From: Prevotella sp.
GTDB lineage: Bacteria > Bacteroidota > Bacteroidia > Bacteroidales > Bacteroidaceae
Direction: 5' to 3'
Length of the DNA: 56,385 nt
NCBI GenBank assembly: GCA_017476785.1
Contig: JAFUZD010000098.1
Coordinates: 1-56,385 of the forward strand
Each line of letters opens with the position of its first letter. Position 1 is the stretch's first letter. The notes below the pieces were generated by a model. It did not search any database. It was not told where the DNA came from and saw only the letters and a list, made by a program, of their open reading frames with translations. Below are positions 12,131 through 50,996 of the stretch, piece by piece. A program made the translations under genes and the position numbers.

Positions 12131-13492
12131 TCAATAGCAACCGACTCCTTTTCCGTAGACGGGTGAAATGGAATCCAAATGGAAGTCATAGCTGAGGTTA
12201 TCCTCGTCAATGCGTATGAAATGCTTCTTTCCGTTGATAGAGTCTTTCGGCGTTTCCCAGATGATATTGCGGAATAGTACCGTGGTATCTTCGGGTATCG
12301 GCGTACGCATCAGACAATCTTCAAAGTAATAAGCGTAGGCCACGGTGGAGTCACGGCTTTCGCCCAGTATTACGTCGTCTTCGTAGCCTGTGATGAGTGA
12401 TCGTTGGCAGACAAGATAGGCCAGCGGATAGCTATACCCTTCATAGTAGTTGGCAAATCGGAGTGCTACGCCGCGGTTGGCAGAGAAGGGATAGAACTGA
12501 GCCAGCGTACAGTTGAGCAGCTGGGCACCACCGCCATACACGGCAACGCAGTCTCCCAGCGTATTGCTGATTTGACATTTGTAGAGTCCGAGTAGCGTGT
12601 TGAACGCCTGTATGCCCGGTCCTTTGGCGTTGTGAACGACACATTCGCGCATCAGTAGACGGAGCGTTGTGGAATCCACCGCTGCCGAGTCGCATAGGAT
12701 GCCGTATTCAGCATTTCTGATTTCCGTGCGTTCAAGAACATTCTTACTTGATGAGGGATAGATATGGATGCCACGCCACTGGCCGCTGACGCGATCGTAA
12801 GGCAGATAGTCAAACATATGATCCAGCCTGTCGCCTCGCAGCAGTACACGCTCGCCCCCTGTTTGTAACTGACCATAGACATCGATTCCTGCATTCGCGT
12901 GAAAATAGAGTGAAGTGTTGTGTATGGTCAGTGTGGCAGCACTGTCGACCCGCATCATTCCATAGACTACAATGGGCTTGGTGCTCTCTATCACCGTGTC
13001 GCGACTGATGACAGGATTTGTCAGTTTGATGGCGTCCCACGAATAACAGCTAAGATTGACGCGTTGTTCTACCCCACTCTCCAGCGTAAAGATAAGATTG
13101 TCTTCCACAAGCAAAGGATCTTCTGCGTGATTTTCTACGGAGGTCAGTTCTACGAACACACGGAGGCTGTCACCTTTACGTACTTCGAGGTCATTTACCT
13201 GATAGCCTGTGGTCTGACCAAGAAAGGTTCCGTCCACATTCACTCGATAACCCGATTGATTTCCACGGTCTAAGCGTATCTGTTTCAAACGCAGGCCGTC
13301 TGTGCTGTGGTTGTAGACCCAGAAAGTGTAGGTAGACGAAGGAACTGTGCTGAACAGCGTGTCCAGTCGTACGGTGTCGGCAGAAAAGGTCAGTCGCTCG
13401 GAGCGACTTGTCGTGAACGACTCGTCGTCGGTGCAAGCTGCCAAGACAGCCACAACAAATATCAGAATCAAAAAGAATGGTCGCTTTATCAT
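12131..13492 (-). CDS. Surface or periplasmic lipoprotein, right-handed beta-helix type
   Basis: 453 residues. A lipoprotein signal with lipobox LAAC (Cys20), followed by acidic residues (TDDE), which in Bacteroidetes fits the lipoprotein export signal for surface display. The N-terminal half is beta-rich; the middle (about 170-400) has parallel beta-helix-like repeats (GIHIYPSSSKNVLERTEIRNAEYG, then further NxT/xIxNxxxxGI turns). No catalytic residues are recognisable; conserved hypothetical proteins of this kind are common in Prevotella and Bacteroides. The start codon at 13490-13492 lies at the loop of the rubrerythrin terminator hairpin. No other in-frame start would keep the signal peptide. 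Confidence 0.85.
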   Translation of the reverse strand: MIKRPFFLILIFVVAVLAACTDDESFTTSRSERLTFSADTVRLDTLFSTVPSSTYTFWVYNHSTDGLRLKQIRLDRGNQSGYRVNVDGTFLGQTTGYQVNDLEVRKGDSLRVFVELTSVENHAEDPLLVEDNLIFTLESGVEQRVNLSCYSWDAIKLTNPVISRDTVIESTKPIVVYGMMRVDSAATLTIHNTSLYFHANAGIDVYGQLQTGGERVLLRGDRLDHMFDYLPYDRVSGQWRGIHIYPSSSKNVLERTEIRNAEYGILCDSAAVDSTTLRLLMRECVVHNAKGPGIQAFNTLLGLYKCQISNTLGDCVAVYGGGAQLLNCTLAQFYPFSANRGVALRFANYYEGYSYPLAYLVCQRSLITGYEDDVILGESRDSTVAYAYYFEDCLMRTPIPEDTTVLFRNIIWETPKDSINGKKHFIRIDEDNLSYDFHLDSISPVYGKGVGCY

Positions 13493-13516
13493 ACGTAGAT
13501 AAAACGACCATTCTTT
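13472..13516 (-). terminator. Terminator hairpin overlapping the start codon of the lipoprotein gene
   Basis: The arms at 13498-13516 and 13472-13490 form a continuous 19-bp stem with a single G-U wobble and a 7-nt loop. On the minus strand it is followed by TTTTTGATT. The ATG of the downstream lipoprotein (13492-13490) begins in the loop and its third base opens the right arm. The hairpin lies 20 nt after the rubrerythrin stop codon. Confidence 0.85.
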
Positions 13517-13536
13517 CTTTTTATTGTGCTGTAGGC

Positions 13537-41703: not shown

Positions 41704-41760
41704 TGCTTTTGCATAAGCCTCCTATGATGCCTTTCCTCGAAGACACAAGGAGAATAACGA

Positions 41761-41920
41761 CAAAGAGGCAGGTCTTCTGACTTTGTTGCCCGACACAAAC
41801 GTCTTCCCGATAAGCTCAGTGACGCATTGTTTGTGCCGTGTAAGGACAACTTACAGCAGCGGGACTGTTCTGGACTTTCACCAGATTCCCTTTTATCGCC
41901 CGACTGGGGCGAACCTCTAT
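41761..41920 (-). promoter_or_regulatory. Cobalamin riboswitch
   Basis: On the minus strand the full consensus core is present: GGGAATCTGGTGAAAGTCC, then ACAGTCCCGCTGCTGTAA, CACTG, GGGAAGACG and the B12 box GTCAGAAGACCTGCC. P1 closes between AGAGG (41918-41914) and CCTCT (41768-41764). It should reduce btuBGFC expression when adenosylcobalamin or another cobalamin is bound, probably by hiding the AGGAGG near 41718-41723. Confidence 0.95.
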
Positions 41921-41928
41921 TGCGGGTG

Positions 41929-41960
41929 CAAATTTACAAAAGATTTGCAAAACGAGCAAA
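41929..41960 (-). promoter_or_regulatory. Promoter of the btu operon
   Basis: The minus strand has TTTG at 41960-41957, 20 bp, then TAAATTTG at 41936-41929. Transcription would begin near 41922, right at the start of the riboswitch. Confidence 0.75.
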
Positions 41961-41975
41961 AAACCTTTTATCTTT

Positions 41976-43058
41976 TTACGCATCGAGCAGTGTCTGCACG
42001 ATGCGCTCAGCAGTACGGCCATCCCATCTGTCGGGCAGCGAGCTGTGCTTCCACACTCCTTGTCTCATTTGCTCCAATGCTTCAGCCAATCGGCCCGCAT
42101 CTTCGCCAACCAGCACATTGGTCCCCGTCTTGACGGTTTCAATATGCTCGGTATAACTGTTGAGCGTGATGCAGGGGACGTTGTTGAACGTGGCCTCTTC
42201 TGCCACATTGCCCGAATCGGTAATGATGCCACGGGCATTGGCCGTCAGCCAGCCGAATTCAAGATAGGGCAATGAAGGGATGATTTGGACGGAATGACTG
42301 TCGCCCAACAATGCGCCGACGACAGCGGCTGCCTCGGGACGCAACGGAGCTATGACAGGAAGCCCGCAGGCCATAAGGGCATCAATCATTGGTGCCAAAC
42401 GGGAACGGTCGGCCAGCAGTGCCTTACGATTGAGCGTAAAGACGAGGTATTGGCCTGCGCAGATTGTCGTACCGTCTACGATGTCCGGCCGGTGCAGCCG
42501 GCTGTGGTTGTTGCGCAGCGTGTCCATCAGGATGTTGCCCACCATATAGATCTTGTGCATCTCTGCCCCTTCGCGGGTAGCGGTGCTGCTGGAGCCGACA
42601 CCGGCCGTGAACAAGAGGTCGGAAAGGCCGTCAATGACAAGACGGTTGATTTCCTTAGGCATCTGAATGTCGAAAGAGCGCGTGCCAGCCACGAGATGTG
42701 CCAGCCGGATACCTCGCTTCTTGGCCACGATGGCGGCGGCCATCGTAGAGGCAAGGTCGTCGACCACAATGACGGTATCTGTGGGATGCTGGTCAAGATA
42801 GCGTTCGAACTGCGACATCACTTGTCCCGTCAGCTCGTTCAGATTCTCGCAGTCGACACCGAGATACACGTCAGGGCGCGGCATCTGCAAGTCGTCAAAC
42901 AGGCTGGATTCAAGCGTAGGGTCGTCGGCCTTGCCGGCATAGACCAGCTGCTCGCTGATGGCACAGCCAGCATCGCTGGCCTGACGAATGGCCCGAATAA
43001 TGGGGGCTACCTTTATGAAATTGGGGCGTGCACCCGTGAATATACAAATGTGTTGCAT
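41976..43058 (-). CDS. UDP-GlcNAc 2-epimerase-like protein (WecB family) with altered active site
   Basis: 360 residues, GT-B-like fold of the non-hydrolysing UDP-GlcNAc 2-epimerases (FTGARPNFIKVAPIIRAI, then HLVAGTRSFD, NRLVIDGLSDLLF, YLEFGWLTANARGIITDSGNVAEE). Against E. coli WecB (Asp95, Glu117, Glu131, His213), the aligned residues are Asp101, Val123, Lys135 and Asn210. HVEAG becomes HLVAG and GHRRE becomes TLNRK. So three of four acid-base residues seem lost, and classical epimerase activity is doubtful. It is a single-gene unit with a -7 at 43082-43089. Confidence 0.8.
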   Translation of the reverse strand: MQHICIFTGARPNFIKVAPIIRAIRQASDAGCAISEQLVYAGKADDPTLESSLFDDLQMPRPDVYLGVDCENLNELTGQVMSQFERYLDQHPTDTVIVVDDLASTMAAAIVAKKRGIRLAHLVAGTRSFDIQMPKEINRLVIDGLSDLLFTAGVGSSSTATREGAEMHKIYMVGNILMDTLRNNHSRLHRPDIVDGTTICAGQYLVFTLNRKALLADRSRLAPMIDALMACGLPVIAPLRPEAAAVVGALLGDSHSVQIIPSLPYLEFGWLTANARGIITDSGNVAEEATFNNVPCITLNSYTEHIETVKTGTNVLVGEDAGRLAEALEQMRQGVWKHSSLPDRWDGRTAERIVQTLLDA

Positions 43059-43081
43059 AGTCTACTTCAATTTATCGGCGG

Positions 43082-43089
43082 CAAAGATA
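43082..43089 (-). promoter_or_regulatory. Probable promoter (-7) of the WecB-like gene
   Basis: The minus strand reads TATCTTTG, just after the terminator of the candidate small RNA. Confidence 0.45.
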
Positions 43090-43112
43090 CGAAGATTTTC
43101 TTGAATAAAGAA

Positions 43113-43142
43113 ACAAAAAATGGCCAACTTCACAGCCGGCCA
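43113..43142 (-). terminator. Terminator of the candidate small RNA
   Basis: 6-bp GC-rich stem ATGGCC/GGCCAT with a 12-nt loop, then TTTTTTG on the minus strand. Confidence 0.75.
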
Positions 43143-43236
43143 TCCTGTCCTAAACTAAACAAATACCTTTATGAATCTCAATTTGAGAGAGTGTTACTTG
43201 ATTTTTGGTCAATCAATTCAGTCGTTTATCTTTTCG
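43113..43236 (-). ncRNA. Candidate small RNA of about 125 nt
   Basis: A promoter (43243-43274) and a terminator (ATGGCC 43142-43137, GGCCAT 43124-43119, then TTTTTTG) enclose 125 nt without a convincing gene on the minus strand. The gene behind the promoter (43277-43879) ends before it, and the next gene has its own -7 element after the terminator. No known family recognised. Confidence 0.5.
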
Positions 43237-43242
43237 ACGTTG

Positions 43243-43274
43243 CAAAGGTAAGGCTATTCTGCTGAATACACAAT
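43243..43274 (-). promoter_or_regulatory. Orphan promoter upstream of the candidate small RNA
   Basis: The minus strand has ATTG at 43274-43271, 20 bp, then TACCTTTG at 43250-43243. Confidence 0.55.
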
Positions 43275-43276
43275 AC

Positions 43277-43879
43277 CTAAAAATGAGGTTTTAGTCCGAC
43301 GACAAAGAGCAAAGACTCATAAAATTGGGCTAATAACACATAAAAAAGAAACAACGGCGCAGCACTGCGGATACCGCATAATAATGATTCATAGACGTGA
43401 CGTAACGACTGATAGCGTCCGGAGATGATGCCATAGGTCAGGCTGGTAGCCACAATGGCAAAGGACAATGCCGGAACCAGACTGGCACTAAATGGCGACG
43501 GGAACAACCGGCCACTGGCGCTGAGCAGGATGGCCCGTGGGGCGACGGCTAAGGCAGACAGCACGACCAAGAATAGCAATAGTAATGTGGCGGAGAGCCC
43601 TAAAGCAATGCGCTGACGATAGGCGAACGGACGGCGCAGGCCGAGCAGACCGCAATCGCGCAGGCAGCCTACGGCTATTGCCGCCAACAGCAGCCACACC
43701 AACAATGGGGATGCCAGTACATCGGAAAAGCGGCCGCAGAACCAGCGAATGCCCTCGGAGCTGAGCAACGAGCGCACACCGACGGTCTGCGTGGCAGAGA
43801 GGAGCCACGACACCAGCACCAGCAACAGCTGAGCCACTATTAGCAGTGCGGCGAGCAGGGCAGCACGTTTACTCGTCAT
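43277..43879 (-). CDS. Integral membrane protein, possibly a shortened AbgT-like transporter
   Basis: 200 residues from the ATG at 43877-43879; the in-frame TTG at 43897 is less likely. About five membrane helices. The segment VGVRSLLSSEGIRWFCGRFSDVLASPLL resembles the start of AbgT (p-aminobenzoyl-glutamate) transporters, and ILLSASGRLFPSPFSASLVP a later AbgT loop, but the protein is less than half the family length. The assignment is weak. It overlaps the response-regulator gene by 11 nt, so it belongs to the two-component operon. Confidence 0.7.
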   Translation of the reverse strand: MTSKRAALLAALLIVAQLLLVLVSWLLSATQTVGVRSLLSSEGIRWFCGRFSDVLASPLLVWLLLAAIAVGCLRDCGLLGLRRPFAYRQRIALGLSATLLLLFLVVLSALAVAPRAILLSASGRLFPSPFSASLVPALSFAIVATSLTYGIISGRYQSLRHVYESLLCGIRSAAPLFLFYVLLAQFYESLLFVVGLKPHF

Positions 43880-44588
43880 CGGCTTCAAGATTGTCAATGT
43901 CTAATATCCGCAGTTCGAGGGCACGTACCACAAGACGCGTGGCATTGACACCGCCTCCTGCGTCAGGGAACAGTTTCTGCACCAATTCGTTCTGACGCTT
44001 CTCCAGACTTTTCACTCCGAAAGGCATTCCACGCAGATTGGTGATTTGTTCCTTGGTATAGCCGAGTGCCAGATGGCGCAGGAAACGTTCGTCATACTCG
44101 TCAATCTCGTAATTGATGAGTGCCTCCTGCCGTGCCAACTGACTGCCGACGGCATACTTGAAACGCTCGACAATCTTTTGCAGGATAGGCTCGTTGAAGA
44201 CCAGCTGCTTGCCTTCCATAACGCTGCGCACATCGGCGCGGGTCAGTAACTCTCCGCTCTTGAGGATGATGCCGTCAGTACCAGCATCAAGCGCATCGAC
44301 CCACAGTTTCTCGTTCAGTATCTCACCCGTGAAGATAAGCACTTTCACCTCTGGGTGCTGCTCCTTAGTATGCCGGCAGATTTCAATGCCTACCGTGGTA
44401 GAGCCGCCTAAGCCGAGGTCGAGCAGCACGAGGTCGGGGACCTGCTGCTTCATCAGTCGCCAATAGGCTGACTCGCTGTCGGCCGTTCCTATAATCTGCG
44501 CTTCAGGAATGTCGTTGCGGATGATGCCTTCGGTGCCCTTCAACTCAAGGGGCACGTCTTCTACGATAATCAGTTTAAAGTTTTCCAT
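43869..44588 (-). CDS. Response regulator with LuxR-like output domain
   Basis: 239 residues. Receiver domain (1-125): acidic pair Glu10-Asp11, phospho-acceptor Asp57 in LVLLDLGLGG, Thr in LIFTGE and Lys in GIILKSGE. The C-terminal region (about 165-210) has an HTH of LuxR/GerE shape (DERFLRHLALGYTKEQITNLRGMPFGVKSLEKRQNELVQKLF), although the second helix carries an unusual MPFG. It overlaps the kinase gene by 14 nt and is the evident cognate regulator. Target genes are unknown. Confidence 0.9.
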   Translation of the reverse strand: MENFKLIIVEDVPLELKGTEGIIRNDIPEAQIIGTADSESAYWRLMKQQVPDLVLLDLGLGGSTTVGIEICRHTKEQHPEVKVLIFTGEILNEKLWVDALDAGTDGIILKSGELLTRADVRSVMEGKQLVFNEPILQKIVERFKYAVGSQLARQEALINYEIDEYDERFLRHLALGYTKEQITNLRGMPFGVKSLEKRQNELVQKLFPDAGGGVNATRLVVRALELRILDIDNLEADDE

Positions 44589-47500
44589 ATCGAGGTAATG
44601 TTATTTTTATGATTGTCTGATGGGTGTCGTTAACTTCAGCCTCAATGCCACACCCGTGGCGATTGGTTGCTTCGCCGTGGTCGCGCACTATCTGGCGGCA
44701 CAGCAGGAAGGGTATGTGGTCCGTGTGGGGAGTGAACAGCTGGCTGGCTTGCTCGGCAGAGAGCTGTAACTGCGGCATTGGGACTGAGTAGACAAGATAC
44801 TGCTCATCGCGCACTTCAACAGAGATTTGGTCGGGCTGCTTGGTGAGCAGTTCGAAGAGATAATGGAGCAGATTGGCATCCCCCAGCACCGTATGGTTAC
44901 ATAGCGTGACGGGTGCCAATCGCAGTGCAACCCGCTCTGTCTGCCGCATTGCCTGCTGGCTGAGGATGGAATAGATGTCGCGATAATAATCCACGACCTC
45001 AGTCAGAGCCTGACGCTGGTCGGATGGCTCGTCGAGCAACTGACGGATGCGGCTGGGATAGTACATCGTTTCGTGCTTCAATGTCGACAAGCAGTTGTCG
45101 AGGATGGCATTGCTGACGTGCAGGTTGCTGTCTTCCAACTCGGCACGTTTCAGCTCGTCTTCGGCCAGCTCCAGATGGGTTGCTTGCTGACTGTGCAGGA
45201 CGGCAGCATCAGAAAGTGCCTGACGGATGCGGAGCACGATATGCTGAAGCTCTGCGGGATATTGTCCACTGGGCATCTGGTCGATTTGCTGCAATTTGTC
45301 TGTGGCCGTAGCATCGCTCAGCAATACCTCGTTAATCTTCCCGATGCGCTCCACACAAAAGCGATAATACAGACGATGGCGATAGTAGAGCAGGTAATAG
45401 GCGGGCAGAATCATCACCAAGAGCAATACCAATAGGCTGACGGCAATGGTCTTGTTGGTCTGCGACTGCTGCATCACACGGCAATAGTCGGCCAGTGTAT
45501 TGTCTGCCGACATTTCCTTAAACAGCTGGGTATACACCTTATTATTATATTGGTAGAGCTCCCACTGATGTAATGCCAACGCCGCAACGGCACTCTCGTT
45601 GCGTATATCAAGAATGGTCTGATAGTTGGTCTCAATGCTGTCGTGATACCACTCTATCTCTGGAGCCGGAAGTGACGGGTCGCCCTGACGCTGCATCAAC
45701 AACCGGCCTTTCGGAACGTGCTGCAGATAATGCTGGTTGAGGTAATATCGGCAAGAGTCAGCAAACTGCAACGTGCGCTCATAAGTGCCGTTGATGTTAG
45801 AGAAATAGGCACTGTCGGCATAGATATAGGCTTGGCTGAGATGATCGGCACGACTGCTCAGCGGTATCATCAATAAGAGCAGAAGCAGACGAACAATGCC
45901 TTTCGGAAGGCGGAAATAGAAACGGCTTCCCCTACCCTGCTCGCTCTCTGCCTGCAACAGGCAGACATTGAATATCTGGCTAATCTTGCGGTACTTCTCG
46001 ATAATGCCCCTGCAGTTCAACAGCCCGAAGCCACTCGACTTGTCATTGAGCATCTTGCGCTTAAAGACATTCGCCAATTCATCGCTGCTCATTCCTCGCC
46101 CCGTATCGGCCACGGATATCTCAACATATTCGGGCGTATCGGCAGCACTGATACTGACCTCGCCGCCTGCGGCAGTAAATTTCCGGGCATTGTCGGCCAA
46201 TGTGTTCAGCATAAAAAGGGTCAGCACGCGGTCGGCTTTCACTACGGCGTCTGTCGGTTGGATATCAAAGTGGATACCCTTCATCCTGAACCCGGCCTTA
46301 CTCTTGCCGACGATATCAAATAGCGGTTGAAGCCGGAAACTTTCTATGTGCAGACTCAGCTCGCCCTGACGCAACTGAATCCAATGGGTCAGCACGTCGT
46401 TGTATTCGTTGATCTTGTCTGTCAGCTCACGGATATACTCATAGCGTTCTGCCCGCTGCTCCGGTCTGTCCAGCCGTTTCACCTCGTGGATGATACGGTC
46501 GATGAAAGGAGTGATGCTGTTGACCAGCGACAACTTGGCCCGCTGCTCCAGATGGCGACGCTCATTATTGCGGATATGCATTTGATTCAAAGCGGTCGCT
46601 TCGCTGATTTCTTCCATCCGCTCTCTCATCTCGTCAGCTTCGCGCTCGTTGGTCTCCTGCCACTTCCGCAATGGCAGAAGCAGTTGCTCCAGCGATGTGT
46701 CAGACTTGCGCTTCTGATGCCAGTGGTTAAATAACCACAACATAAACGACAGTAGCAGAATGGCTGCCACTACTGCCAATATCATCCAGTTAAGCTGTTT
46801 TGAGGTCTTCTCATACATCGCAGCCCGAGCTTCCAGTTCACGGTCTTGTCGGGTCTGCTCCTGCAAATCAAGATAGAGATTACGGTTGTAGTCGCTGGAT
46901 GGCTTGTCGTTGATAGCCGCATAGGCCACACTCAGCTGCTCGCGGATGCTGGCAACCAAATCGGGTGCCAAATTAATCTTTGGGTTTTCAAGAGCCTGCT
47001 CCAGATAGGCCAATGCTCCCTCGTCGTCGCCATTAGCGTGGCAACAGGATGCCAACGTACGGTAGGCGCCGGCTATCTGGTAAATGTCTCCATATTCAGT
47101 AAAAATGGTCAAAGCATTATAGGCCAGCCACGTCGGTAAAAGTTCTGGCTCCACATTCTCCGGGTTCAGAAACTTCATTGCCGGCAGGTTATCGGCAATC
47201 AGTTGTTCCCGAAACGAGGCGACCAGCAGATGCTCAGAAATAGCTTCGAGCGAGTTGGCGGCAAAATAGGGATAGTTGTACTGGCGTGCCATTAAATAGC
47301 AACGCATCAGATGGTCAAACTCCGCTTGGTTCACTTCTTCCTGTGTACCTCCTGCAATGATGCCGCCAGCACCTACATTGTAAAGGTAATTGAGGTATTG
47401 CGGAATGTCGTGCTGAATATCACCATCGGGGTCGACCGATTGCAGGGCTGCCGCCGACTGGCGCTCCAGTCCCACATAATAATAATAGGTACTGGTGACA

Positions 47501-47973
47501 ATGGCCAACTCTGACTCAGCATAAATCATTCGCCGCTGCAAACGCTCTGTCAGGTAGTCTCGCTCTTCATTGATACGCCGAAGAGCTGAATGGGCACGTT
47601 CCAAATACTCATAGAACTCACGGTTGCGCGACATACGCTGACACAAACGCATCTGCTGAATGTAAGCAACGAGCAGCTCTATCTGATTGTCCGTGTGACT
47701 GATGGCATCGTCCAGATAGCGGCCTGCCCCGTCGTAGTCCATCCGCATCGTGGCCACGAATGCCATATTGTTGCAAGCCTCGGCATAACCATCGTCCGAT
47801 GGCTTGCATTGCTTCAATGCCCGTTGGGCATATACACTCACAGAGTCTAATTGACGGTAGTGAAAGGCGTATGAGAGGTCGTTCAGCTCGTCTACATTCT
47901 GATGGGGAGCTGAGGAACACGCCAATGCCAAAGTGGCAATAAGAAAAAAATACAGATTACGGATTACAGACAT
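44575..47973 (-). CDS. Large TPR/sensor histidine kinase with a second degenerate kinase-like module
   Basis: 1132 residues from the ATG at 47971-47973; an ATG at 48033 would overlap kdgA and put 20 residues before the signal peptide. Lipoprotein-like signal (LALACSS) or uncleaved anchor, a TPR-rich periplasmic part (about 25-390), a membrane helix (about 395-420), a coiled coil and H-box-like segment (IIHEVKRLDR), then an HATPase with LADNARKF (N box), ADTGRGMS (G1) and GFGLLNCRGI (G2). A second membrane helix, a short periplasmic helical part, a third helix (VSLLVLLLVMILPAYYLLYY) and a degenerate HATPase-like C-terminus follow. The last part has GDANLLHYLFELL but lacks clear G boxes. I believe the type corresponds to DUF5112/DUF5113 proteins of Bacteroides. 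Operon: kinase, regulator, membrane protein. Confidence 0.85.
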   Translation of the reverse strand: MSVIRNLYFFLIATLALACSSAPHQNVDELNDLSYAFHYRQLDSVSVYAQRALKQCKPSDDGYAEACNNMAFVATMRMDYDGAGRYLDDAISHTDNQIELLVAYIQQMRLCQRMSRNREFYEYLERAHSALRRINEERDYLTERLQRRMIYAESELAIVTSTYYYYVGLERQSAAALQSVDPDGDIQHDIPQYLNYLYNVGAGGIIAGGTQEEVNQAEFDHLMRCYLMARQYNYPYFAANSLEAISEHLLVASFREQLIADNLPAMKFLNPENVEPELLPTWLAYNALTIFTEYGDIYQIAGAYRTLASCCHANGDDEGALAYLEQALENPKINLAPDLVASIREQLSVAYAAINDKPSSDYNRNLYLDLQEQTRQDRELEARAAMYEKTSKQLNWMILAVVAAILLLSFMLWLFNHWHQKRKSDTSLEQLLLPLRKWQETNEREADEMRERMEEISEATALNQMHIRNNERRHLEQRAKLSLVNSITPFIDRIIHEVKRLDRPEQRAERYEYIRELTDKINEYNDVLTHWIQLRQGELSLHIESFRLQPLFDIVGKSKAGFRMKGIHFDIQPTDAVVKADRVLTLFMLNTLADNARKFTAAGGEVSISAADTPEYVEISVADTGRGMSSDELANVFKRKMLNDKSSGFGLLNCRGIIEKYRKISQIFNVCLLQAESEQGRGSRFYFRLPKGIVRLLLLLLMIPLSSRADHLSQAYIYADSAYFSNINGTYERTLQFADSCRYYLNQHYLQHVPKGRLLMQRQGDPSLPAPEIEWYHDSIETNYQTILDIRNESAVAALALHQWELYQYNNKVYTQLFKEMSADNTLADYCRVMQQSQTNKTIAVSLLVLLLVMILPAYYLLYYRHRLYYRFCVERIGKINEVLLSDATATDKLQQIDQMPSGQYPAELQHIVLRIRQALSDAAVLHSQQATHLELAEDELKRAELEDSNLHVSNAILDNCLSTLKHETMYYPSRIRQLLDEPSDQRQALTEVVDYYRDIYSILSQQAMRQTERVALRLAPVTLCNHTVLGDANLLHYLFELLTKQPDQISVEVRDEQYLVYSVPMPQLQLSAEQASQLFTPHTDHIPFLLCRQIVRDHGEATNRHGCGIEAEVNDTHQTIIKITLPRYGKL

Positions 47974-47997
47974 CCATCCGTAATCCGCAATCTGTAT
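47943..47997 (-). terminator. Terminator hairpin of kdgA containing the start codon of the kinase gene
   Basis: 18-bp continuous stem with one G-U wobble (47980-47997 with 47950-47967) and a 12-nt loop GGATGGATGTCT in minus orientation. The ATG of the kinase (47973-47971) is in the loop. A TTTTTTTCTT run follows and encodes Phe-Phe-Leu of the signal peptide. It starts 14 nt after the kdgA stop. Confidence 0.88.
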
Positions 47998-48010
47998 ACA
48001 ACTGCAATGC

Positions 48011-48679
48011 TTATGCACGAGCCTTGGCAACATAACCCAGTGCCTCCTTGCACTTGTCGGTTACGTACTGCCAGTCTCCTGCCTGCACCTTATCCTTCGG
48101 GAACAGCTTCGAGCCCATTCCTACGCAGAACACACCGGCTTTGAACCATCCTTTGAGGTTCTCTTCTTCGGGTGCCACGCCACCGGTGACCATAATCTTT
48201 GACCACGGCATCGGAGCCTTCAAACCCTTTACCATATTCGGGCCGACCACATCGCCGGGGAACACCTTCGTCAGGTCGCAGCCTAACTCCTGTGCCTTAC
48301 CGATTTCGCTGACGGTCATACAACCCGGGCAATAGGGAACGAGGCGGCGGTTGCACACGGGAGCTATCTCAGGATTGAACAGCGGTCCAACCACGAAGTT
48401 GGCACCCAGTTGCAGATAGAGTGCTGCCGTGGGAGCGTCGACTACGGAACCGATACCCAGTGCCAGCTCAGGACACTCCTTATCAGCCCACTTCACCAGC
48501 TCACCGAAGATTTCGTGAGCGAAGTCACCGCGGTTAGTAAACTCGAATGCACGAACACCACCTTCATAGCAGGCCTTCACCACATTCTTACAAGTCTCGA
48601 GGTCTTTGTGATAGAACACGGGCACCATTCCCGTGTCGCCGATCTTCTTCAGTACGGCTATCTTGTCAAACTTTGCCAT
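48011..48679 (-). CDS. kdgA: KDPG/KHG aldolase (2-dehydro-3-deoxy-phosphogluconate aldolase)
   Basis: 222 residues, TIM-barrel class I aldolase. Splits KDPG into pyruvate and glyceraldehyde-3-phosphate. The Schiff-base Lys is in [14 protein letters not shown]; the Glu of FEFTNRGD and phosphate loop [13 protein letters not shown] are present. It is 5 nt downstream of the KDG kinase gene, so the pair forms the end of hexuronate (pectin or alginate sugar) breakdown. A terminator follows at once, over the start of the kinase gene. Confidence 0.94.
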
Positions 48680-48684
48680 TGTTC

Positions 48685-49707
48685 TTATCGTTGTACGCGG
48701 CCGTTGGCATTACCGCCGGCCAGTGATTCTACTTCATCAACACCTACTAAGTTGAAGTCACCATTGATGGTATGCTTCAGCGCCGAAGCGGCCACGGCAA
48801 ACTCCAGAGCCTCGCCCTGCGTCGGCTTGGTCAGCAGACCGTGAATCAGGCCACCCGAGAACGAGTCACCGCCACCGACGCGGTCGATAATCGGGTTGAT
48901 CTCGTAACGCTTCGACTGATAGAACTCTTTGCCATCGTAAATCAATGCTTTCCAGCCATTGAACGTAGCAGAGAACGACTCACGCAGGGTGGATACGACA
49001 TACTTGAAACCGAACTCTTCCTTCATCTGCTTGAAAATCTTCTCATAGCCGCTGGCATCCGTTACGCCACCCTCGACATCAGCATCGGGCTTAAAGCCGA
49101 GGCAAAGCTCTGCGTCTTCCTCATTGCCAATGCATACGTCTACATACTTCATCAACGGGCGCATAATAGAAATGGCCTTCTCGCTGGTCCAAAGTTTCTT
49201 GCGGAAGTTCAAGTCCACGCTGACGGTAACGCCGTGACGCTTGGCAGCCTCACTAGCCAGACGGGTCAGTTCGGCAGATTTGTCTCTGATGGCGGGGGTA
49301 ATGCCGCTCCAGTGGAACCACTGGGCACCTTCCATAATCTTGTCGAAATCAAAATCAGCAGCATCAGCCTCTGCTATCGACGAATGAGCACGGTCGTAAA
49401 TCACCTTCGACGGACGCATTGACGCACCGGTCTCAGCGTAATACAGGCCTACACGCTCACCACCACGGGCAATAAACTCGGTATTCACACCATAGCGACG
49501 CAGTGCGTTGACGGCAATCTGGCCGATTTCGTGCTTCGGCAGTTTGCTTACGAAATAGGCTTCGTGACCATAGTTTGCCACGCTGACAGCCACGTTGGCC
49601 TCACCGCCACCGGGGATGATACGGAATGATTCACTCTGGATGAAACGGTCGTTGCCTGTCGGCGAAAGGCGAAGCATAATTTCGCCTAAAGTTACAATTT
49701 TAGCCAT
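48685..49707 (-). CDS. kdgK: 2-Keto-3-deoxygluconate kinase (PfkB family)
   Basis: 340 residues, ribokinase fold. Phosphorylates 2-keto-3-deoxygluconate at C6 with ATP. The N-terminal [15 protein letters not shown] is the sugar-binding lid motif, and [16 protein letters not shown] contains the catalytic Asp and anion hole (PfkB signature 2). The gene order with kdgA supports KDG over other sugars. The start at 49707 has a canonical promoter 40 nt upstream (49747-49777). Confidence 0.92.
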
Positions 49708-49746
49708 TTGTTTTAGTATTATGAATTAATGTTTGTATTTCAAATG

Positions 49747-49777
49747 CAAAAATAAGACAATTTTTCCGAACGGCAAA
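49747..49777 (-). promoter_or_regulatory. Promoter of kdgK-kdgA
   Basis: The minus strand has TTTG at 49777-49774, 19 bp, then TATTTTTG at 49754-49747. Confidence 0.75.
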
Positions 49778-49889
49778 ATAAACGGCGAAAATCTTCCCGA
49801 TTTCTGTCGTAAACGTTTCCGAACCACTCTACCCCATCCTTCTGACAATAAAAATCAAAGAAAAAGGGCGGGATGTCGGACAAAAATAC

Positions 49890-49897
49890 TAACTTTG
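49890..49897 (+). promoter_or_regulatory. Probable promoter (-7) of the AI-2E family gene
   Basis: TAACTTTG, a TAnnTTTG match 28 bp upstream of the start codon. No -33 of good quality. Confidence 0.45.
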
Positions 49898-49925
49898 CAG
49901 CATTACTGATTAAAGCTAAACGATA

Positions 49926-50996
49926 ATGATGCGCAAAGAGATAACATTCGACACGTTCGTCCGCGGCTTTCTTGCCGTGGTAGTCATAGTGGGAATCGTG
50001 ATGTTGCTGGGACGGCTCAGCAGTGTGTTGCTGCCATTCTTTCTGGCGTGGCTTATTGCCTACCTCATCTTTCCGTTGGTCAAGTTTTTTCAGTACCGTT
50101 GTCGGCTGAAGTTCCGCATTCTCGGCATCCTATGCTCTTTCATCGTAGTAGGAGCATTGCTGACGCTGGCCTTTTGGCTCATAGTGCCTCCCATCATCAA
50201 TGAGGGAGCGCGTGTGATAAACCTTTTGGTCAACTATATAGAGAACGATGCCACGATGAGCAATATTCCCGGGCAGATTCAGCAATTTGTACGCGACCAC
50301 CTCAGTGGCGAACAGATTAAGGCATTGCTGACGCACGAGGGATTCGTCAACGGAATGCGTGAAGCCGTTCCCAAGATATGGGCCATCATCACCCAGTCAT
50401 TCAACGCGCTGTCCAGCCTGCTGTCTATCACGATGGTACTTCTCTATACATTATTCATTCTGCTCGACTATGAAGAGATTACGAAGGGTTGGCCCCAACT
50501 ACTGCCCCGCCGCTATCGCAGATTTGCCCTGCAATTGGTTTCCGACGTGGAAGAGGGAATGAACAAATATTTTCGGGGGCAGGCCTGTGTAGCTTTTTGT
50601 GTCGGCATCCTGTTTAGCATTGGCTTCTTGATTATCGACTTCCCAATGGCCGTCGGTCTCGGGATGCTCATCGGCCTGCTCAATATGGTGCCTTATCTGC
50701 AGATTGTTGGTTTCGTCCCCACCATTCTGCTGGCCATCGTAAAGGCCGCAGACACAGGCCAGAACTTCTGGGTTATCCTGCTGATGGCACTCGCTGTCTT
50801 TGCCATCGTACAGACGATACAAGACACCTTCCTTACTCCCAAGATTATGGGTAAGGTGACGGGGCTCAATTCGGCCATCATTCTGTTGTCGCTCAGCATC
50901 TGGGGCTCTCTGCTCGGAATGCTCGGAATGATTATAGCCCTACCGATGACCACCCTCCTACTCACCTATTATCAGAAGTATTTCATAAAGAACTAA
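49926..50996 (+). CDS. AI-2E family (PerM/TqsA-like) membrane protein
   Basis: 356 residues, about eight membrane helices with a soluble helical loop (about 95-150). Typical motifs: FFLAWLIAYLIFPLVKFFQ near the start, FRGQACVAFCVGILFSIGFLIIDFPMAVGLGMLIGLLNMVPYLQ in the middle, and IWGSLLGMLGMIIALPMTTLL at the end. Members export AI-2 or exchange ions, and the substrate cannot be read from the sequence. A second ATG follows the first immediately (49929). It is a single-gene unit followed by the long leader at 51020-51348. Confidence 0.9.
   Translation: MMRKEITFDTFVRGFLAVVVIVGIVMLLGRLSSVLLPFFLAWLIAYLIFPLVKFFQYRCRLKFRILGILCSFIVVGALLTLAFWLIVPPIINEGARVINLLVNYIENDATMSNIPGQIQQFVRDHLSGEQIKALLTHEGFVNGMREAVPKIWAIITQSFNALSSLLSITMVLLYTLFILLDYEEITKGWPQLLPRRYRRFALQLVSDVEEGMNKYFRGQACVAFCVGILFSIGFLIIDFPMAVGLGMLIGLLNMVPYLQIVGFVPTILLAIVKAADTGQNFWVILLMALAVFAIVQTIQDTFLTPKIMGKVTGLNSAIILLSLSIWGSLLGMLGMIIALPMTTLLLTYYQKYFIKN

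Follow-up and report, generated by a model that had tools for sequence, protein, structure and literature searches.

The window analysed here, a stretch of 56,385 nt, carries on its minus strand a presumed operon that opens with kdgK (48685-49707), encoding a pfkB-family 2-keto-3-deoxygluconate kinase, followed by kdgA (48011-48679; stop codon 48013-48011), encoding the KDPG/KHG aldolase. Downstream on the same strand lie an ORF for a sensor histidine kinase (44575-48033; DUF5112, HATPase_c and DUF5113) and a response regulator gene (43869-44588; Response_reg and DUF5932). By comparison of kdgA, the closest named matches of the stretch were from Prevotella (best 80 of 580 confirmed). Forty nucleotides before kdgK we noted TATTTTTG (49747-49754, minus strand), a match to TAnnTTTG, which we take to be the Bacteroidota -7 consensus. 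A literature search on DUF5112, which is found here in a kinase paired with a DUF5932 regulator, returned no paper. A role as a defence-system kinase was considered and rejected, no defence system having been found.

The kdgA stop codon is followed by a 13-nt spacer (47998-48010) and then by a hairpin (47997-47950, minus strand). The original prediction had described an 18-bp stem with one G-U pair and a 12-nt loop, GGATGGATGTCT; this structure is present, and its loop can close further, such that the predicted minimum-energy form has a 22-bp stem (5′ arm 47976-47997, 3′ arm 47950-47971) and the 4-nt loop GGAT (47972-47975). With flanks, the RNA folds at -34.8 kcal/mol for 81 nt, as compared with a mean of -13.8 for 200 dinucleotide shuffles, none of which was as good (z -8.1). 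Seven T residues follow at 47950-47944; the first is paired in the stem, leaving a tract of six (47944-47949) directly after it. The site thus combines the stable hairpin and the U tract of an intrinsic terminator, and the claim that this combination is not due to chance held. In a separate consensus terminator scan it ranked first of 15 sites in 43000-50500, where shuffles expect 6.9.

The same bases are also protein-coding. The 3′ arm doubles as signal-peptide codons, and the frame reads M-S-V-I-R-N-L-Y-F-F-L, with the T tract supplying the Tyr-Phe-Phe codons of the Tyr-Phe-Phe-Leu stretch, as had been predicted. An ATG (47973-47971), with A and T in the 4-nt loop and G in the 3′ arm, is in frame with the lipoprotein-like signal peptide MSVIRNLYFFLIATLALAC and with a presumed lipobox Cys codon in LALAC (47917-47919), both motifs being judged by eye. 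DNA comparison with 73 bases revealed no second copy in the genome (89% complete), and an arm-pattern search allowing up to three mismatches on both strands of that genome matched the hairpin alone; an interspersed (REP-like) repeat was accordingly rejected. A known Rfam family was rejected as well, the window's only matches at the gathering score being tRNA and a cobalamin riboswitch (41750-41933, minus strand; 104.5 bits).

We then compared this junction with those of relatives. Of 200 genomes from the genus, 161 gave a kdgA match (30 loci retrieved), and further matches came from named records (the best 80 of 580 confirmed). Together they yielded 108 readable junctions, of which 96 were distinct; 40 more from less similar kdgA genes brought the set to 136 distinct junctions. 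The record titles were mostly Prevotella or Prevotellaceae, many of them from rumen, and the sample is tilted to close relatives because the named-record search kept the nearest sequences. A simple stem scanner with a score threshold of 18.6 (the 99.9% quantile of shuffles) detected a strong, terminator-like hairpin within 150 nt after the kdgA stop in 119 of the 136 junctions, a count that, like all junction counts below, is inflated by relatedness. The control stretches scored 1/136 (+170 to +330) and 0/136 (last 120 nt of kdgA). At a threshold of 22, the figures were 90/136 for the junctions versus 0/136 in both controls. Among the 17 junctions below threshold, six were class A hairpins (see below) with a weak tail. 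A hairpin at this site is common across the sampled species, and the junction as a whole matters more than the single hairpin of the window.

The junction hairpins fell into four kinds that are unrelated in sequence: A (47), B (39), C (20) and D (12), with 18 junctions classed as other or none, including loci without a recognized kinase-like ORF; in these counts five labels were changed by hand (L093 and L038 to C, L092 and L026 to other, L082 to A), the kinds '?' and B2 were merged into B, and L010 stands under A although a type B hairpin is also present. Class A junctions mostly lack an insert, their kinase ORF mostly begins inside kdgA, and the hairpin, TTCAGCTTGTTCACC..GGTGGACAAGCTGAA, sits in the lipobox codons for SACSP..VDKLN. 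In class B, where the window was filed, the hairpin occupies codons before the lipobox, often near GGCTCAATATGGC. Class C shows a terminator, often G+C-rich (CCCTCTCGC..GCGGGAGGG), and then a new ATG. In class D the first ATG lies within the hairpin, and the kdgA frame is closed in eight of the twelve. Cultivable strains represented in the set include Prevotella communis E15-14 (L086, class A), Xylanibacter ruminicola Ga6B6 (L080, class C) and Prevotella sp. P5-50 (L073, class D). Three loci (L010, L051 and L113) carry both a lipobox hairpin and another one. On a rough kdgA tree of the 136 junctions, weakly supported with 27 of 133 inner branches starred, kinds A to D change 34 times; if only starred branches are trusted, 8 changes are needed for A, 7 for B, 4 for C and 6 for D. 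Hairpin arms, some of them built of tandem repeats (see below), may grow by slippage. Collectively, the comparison suggests that evolution preserves a built-in brake at the kdgA/kinase junction and not a particular sequence.

Class A allowed RNA pairing to be weighed against coding constraint. In the 38 loci without an insert, the lipobox hairpin had a mean energy of -27.5 kcal/mol versus -10.1 for 1000 synonymous shuffles each, and all 38 reached P ≤ 0.01 (mean z -5.08). The corresponding figures for 52 loci with an insert or another upstream hairpin were 7/52 and a mean z of -1.49. The either-or between the lipobox hairpin and another hairpin is not clean, because 24 of these 52 still beat 95% of their shuffles (P ≤ 0.05). 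In an alignment of 39 of the 40 class A stretches (L178 was left out for an insertion), 11 cells had changed on both sides of a pair versus 2.1 in shuffles (reached by 0/500), and four pairs covaried versus 1.7 (reached by 14/500). One compensatory change, in L035, swaps a Lys codon for Met. From the synonymous shuffles and the covariation together, RNA pairing seems to be kept besides the protein, with the clearest signal in class A loci that have no second hairpin upstream.

The T tracts of class A are short and weak, and a T-tract codon test failed to single out this class, T excess at the class A tail site being seen also in loci with other hairpins (z 9.1 and z 6.1). Resolved by position, T excess over synonymous expectation peaked within 8 nt of the stem's end and then faded, although there is some circularity in this result, T being among the features for which the hairpin scan selects. 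That selection also bears on the T tracts that directly follow the stem in kinds B, C and D, including the one in the window.

The original prediction placed the kinase start at the loop ATG (47973). Comparison pointed elsewhere, namely to an ATG within kdgA (48031-48033, minus strand) whose homologue in class A relatives begins the kinase. Of the 47 class A loci, 43 have an ATG at -23 with an open frame. A start at the site homologous to 48033/48030 was present in all 44 open-frame class A loci (three more were closed). In class B, 31 of the 35 loci with an open frame had it (four more were closed), as that ATG in 15 and as a TTG or GTG one codon on in 16; the other 4 had neither. The kdgA Tyr codon that overlaps this ATG is TAT in 46/47 class A loci and TAC in 19/20 class C loci; other Tyr codons near the kdgA end are TAT in 117 cases and TAC in 46. 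The window keeps both ATG 48033 and TTG 48030, with the frame open through the hairpin. Three relatives (L040, L060 and L067) have hairpins that resemble the window's (GGATTATGG..TAATCCC); that of L060 has ATG TCT, and those of L040 and L067 are without an in-frame ATG. By these homologies, 48033 is quite probably the kinase start, and the loop ATG is probably optional and not the main start. Translation from 48033 is an outcome that the original prediction had itself named as refuting it; here that start is favoured on comparative grounds.

A second nested hairpin, which had been offered as the first example of a start codon within a terminator, proved to be real. It lies between the genes for rubrerythrin and a beta-helix lipoprotein (13470-13518, minus strand; ATG 13490-13492), and the inverted repeat folds at -35.7 kcal/mol (z -8.8). 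Its core pattern occurred in 54 of the 200 genus genomes, a backward control pattern in one, and of 20 core-pattern loci fetched, 19 had rubrerythrin directly upstream. We examined 70 rubrerythrin junctions (30 + 40); the 30 distinct rows caught by a fixed pattern formed the alignment, the remainder either had variant forms outside the pattern or were followed by a different gene. Covariation was found in 9 of 17 pairs versus 4.1 in shuffles, and in 35 cells changed on both sides versus 8.6, neither value being reached in 500 shuffles. Throughout this phylogenetically conserved element, the ATG keeps its position where the loop meets the 3′ arm; that arm encodes the n-region, and Phe codons make up the T tract. 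On comparative grounds it is the stronger case, and the best support for the idea of a start codon set in a putative terminator. In many relatives, CAATAAA precedes this hairpin.

How common is the arrangement? A scan of 728,716 bases (27%) of the window's genome, as the original prediction had proposed, gave 256 hairpins with a score of at least 18, of which 23 rows passed an automatic filter for nesting. Nineteen of these were set aside as weak or antisense-looking ORFs, as having likelier downstream starts or as lacking an in-frame ATG in the hairpin; the remaining four, two of them in the window, were accepted by eye and are a judgement, not a computed count. All four genes encode exported or outer-membrane proteins. 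The two outside the window, a DUF2807 lipoprotein (L275:14603-14675, minus strand) and a TonB receptor (L277:47-98, plus strand), each carry their in-frame ATG within a terminator-like hairpin, with Phe/Leu codons as the T tract; in the TonB receptor gene, another in-frame ATG lies 60 nt upstream of the first. In 7 and 9 other relatives, at most 63% identical, the start-covering hairpin was absent, and in one of the nine (L305) a terminator-like hairpin ends 56 nt before the start. An early pattern search had returned 29 matches, one of which (G000:C16:17773) was the TonB-receptor case; it was otherwise uninformative. A stricter caller, applied to 404,585 bases, gave one 'start in hairpin' and four hairpins located no more than 120 nt into an ORF. 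The ATG-in-hairpin form is rare, and the window is unusually rich in it. We also observed terminator-like hairpins early in ORFs, without an in-frame ATG, at L124:6493-6532, L130:416-458, L272:6878-6915 and L281:9488-9531.

Taken together, these observations lead us to favour, with a probability of roughly 0.6, a model in which a nested intrinsic terminator, antagonized by ribosomes and placed in the first codons of the next gene, would throttle read-through into the sensor. The hairpin and T tract would end the kdgK-kdgA messenger from within the 5′ coding region of the kinase, and polymerases reading through would make the message for the kinase, which is without a visible promoter of its own, and the response regulator. 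A ribosome that finishes kdgA or enters the kinase would cover or melt the hairpin, since this lies 13 nt from the kdgA stop and inside the kinase frame; read-through should therefore rise when translation keeps pace with the polymerase. The model presupposes that transcription and translation are tightly coupled in Prevotella. The T-rich codons of a signal peptide would make such a terminator cheap to build. The sequence comparison itself shows the hairpin, its conserved position and its turnover, synonymous and compensatory selection on one kind, and the homologous start in kdgA, from which we infer termination, ribosome antagonism and the setting of the kinase level; within this model, selection probably keeps a terminator-like hairpin at the kdgA/kinase site but not its sequence. 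The prediction's observation is in this sense confirmed and its interpretation partly supported.

The kdgA/kinase hairpin may work like a translation-coupled attenuator. In pyrBI-type attenuators of E. coli, the terminator lies by or overlaps a reading frame, and a close ribosome prevents the hairpin from forming. The putative terminator here likewise overlaps or closely trails reading frames, with the kdgA stop 13 nt upstream and the ORF from 48033 open through the hairpin. In contrast to pyrBI with its short leader peptide, there is no dedicated leader; the frames are those of kdgA and of the regulated kinase themselves. The median distance from the kdgA stop to the hairpin is 13 nt in class B, 9 in class C and 24 in class A; among 78 terminators located behind genes on the same strand (404,585 bases of the window's genome), the median is 28.5, and 19 begin within 16 nt. 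Work with synthetic terminators in E. coli found that ribosomes repress a terminator placed a few bp behind a stop codon, whereas most of the efficiency is retained when it lies 30 bp inside an ORF (Li et al., 2015; PMC4824070). In the Streptococcus gallolyticus pil1 leader, read-through depends on the distance from stop to terminator or on translation through it (PMC3894217). With these cases, the distances measured here would fit a translation-sensitive terminator. There are also differences. The E. coli constructs share the geometry, repressed near a stop and efficient early in an ORF, but used an engineered lambda tR2 (PMC4824070), as opposed to a natural conserved junction. The pil1 leader, in one isolate of which a different stem-loop occupies the same position, encodes a repeat-bearing peptide and undergoes phase variation (PMC3894217), whereas the kdgA/kinase site uses signal-peptide codons and showed no sign of a switch. 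Among the RNA ends described for 5′ UTRs and ORF interiors of E. coli are premature 3′ ends inside ORFs, although the available text describes no conserved terminator in signal-peptide codons (PMC7815308). Within the portions of the literature accessible to our search, no conserved natural terminator nested in such codons was found.

Other explanations would account for part of the data. Mere genome compaction, in which a plain terminator ends kdgA, the kinase depends on its own promoter or on a fixed leak, and the overlap has no regulatory meaning, would suit the simple terminator-then-ATG order of class C (20/136) and the 19 of 78 terminators that start within 16 nt of a stop. Compaction does not, however, call for a class A hairpin kept in conserved protein codons with compensatory changes. 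The junction also lacks a promoter-like element, which is a weak objection: TAnnTTTG occurred in 0/136 junctions (-110 to +20), but its absence says little because the kinase control stretch likewise gave 0/136. We regard compaction as rather unlikely. Translation of the kinase could instead begin at 47973, with the hairpin serving mainly to hide or show that start codon. This ATG is in frame and the signal peptide follows at once, the rubrerythrin element retains its ATG at the loop edge, and in class D (12/136, kdgA frame closed in 8) the first ATG lies in the hairpin. The window nevertheless keeps, in an open frame, the start codon inside kdgA that is homologous to that of relatives; L040 and L067 have homologous hairpins without the ATG; and the GGATGG sequence is doubtful as a ribosome site, because Shine-Dalgarno sequences appear to be of little importance in Bacteroidota. 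This makes start-codon masking an unlikely main function.

A role in RNA stability, the hairpin protecting the 3′ end of the kdgK-kdgA RNA from exonucleases or marking a processing site so that stability sets the kinase level, is a further alternative; strong non-terminating hairpins of this type would give much of the same conservation. Such a role, too, would favour a hairpin at a fixed place whatever its sequence, and the U tracts of class A are weak. What speaks for termination instead are the T tracts immediately after the stem in kinds B, C and D, the window among them, and the T excess that peaks within 8 nt of the stem and then declines, the former in hairpins that the scan selected for T and the latter partly circular. 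We consider RNA protection improbable.

The proposed ribosome-antagonized terminator may extend beyond kdgA. As a tentative generalization, which we think somewhat doubtful, selection in Prevotella could commonly shape a terminator out of the codons for the signal peptide or lipobox wherever an exported or membrane regulator follows a metabolic gene, such that ribosome traffic on the metabolic gene sets the amount of sensor, the terminator being reinvented while its place is kept. If ribosomes do act against the terminator, the level of a sensor would be tuned by translation of the enzyme next to it, with no regulator protein involved. The junction would be a case of a regulatory function conserved in position but not in sequence, a situation to which RNA searches based on alignment are blind. 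The T-rich codons of hydrophobic signal peptides and transcription termination can share the same bases, and gene callers may misplace both starts and terminators at such nested junctions. The arms of the window hairpin resemble a 7-nt tandem repeat (GATTACG), and tandem-repeat arms (TGAAGAATGAAGAA / TTCTTCATTCTTCA) were seen at four kdgA junctions (L058, L070, L110 and L021) and at one rubrerythrin junction (L228).
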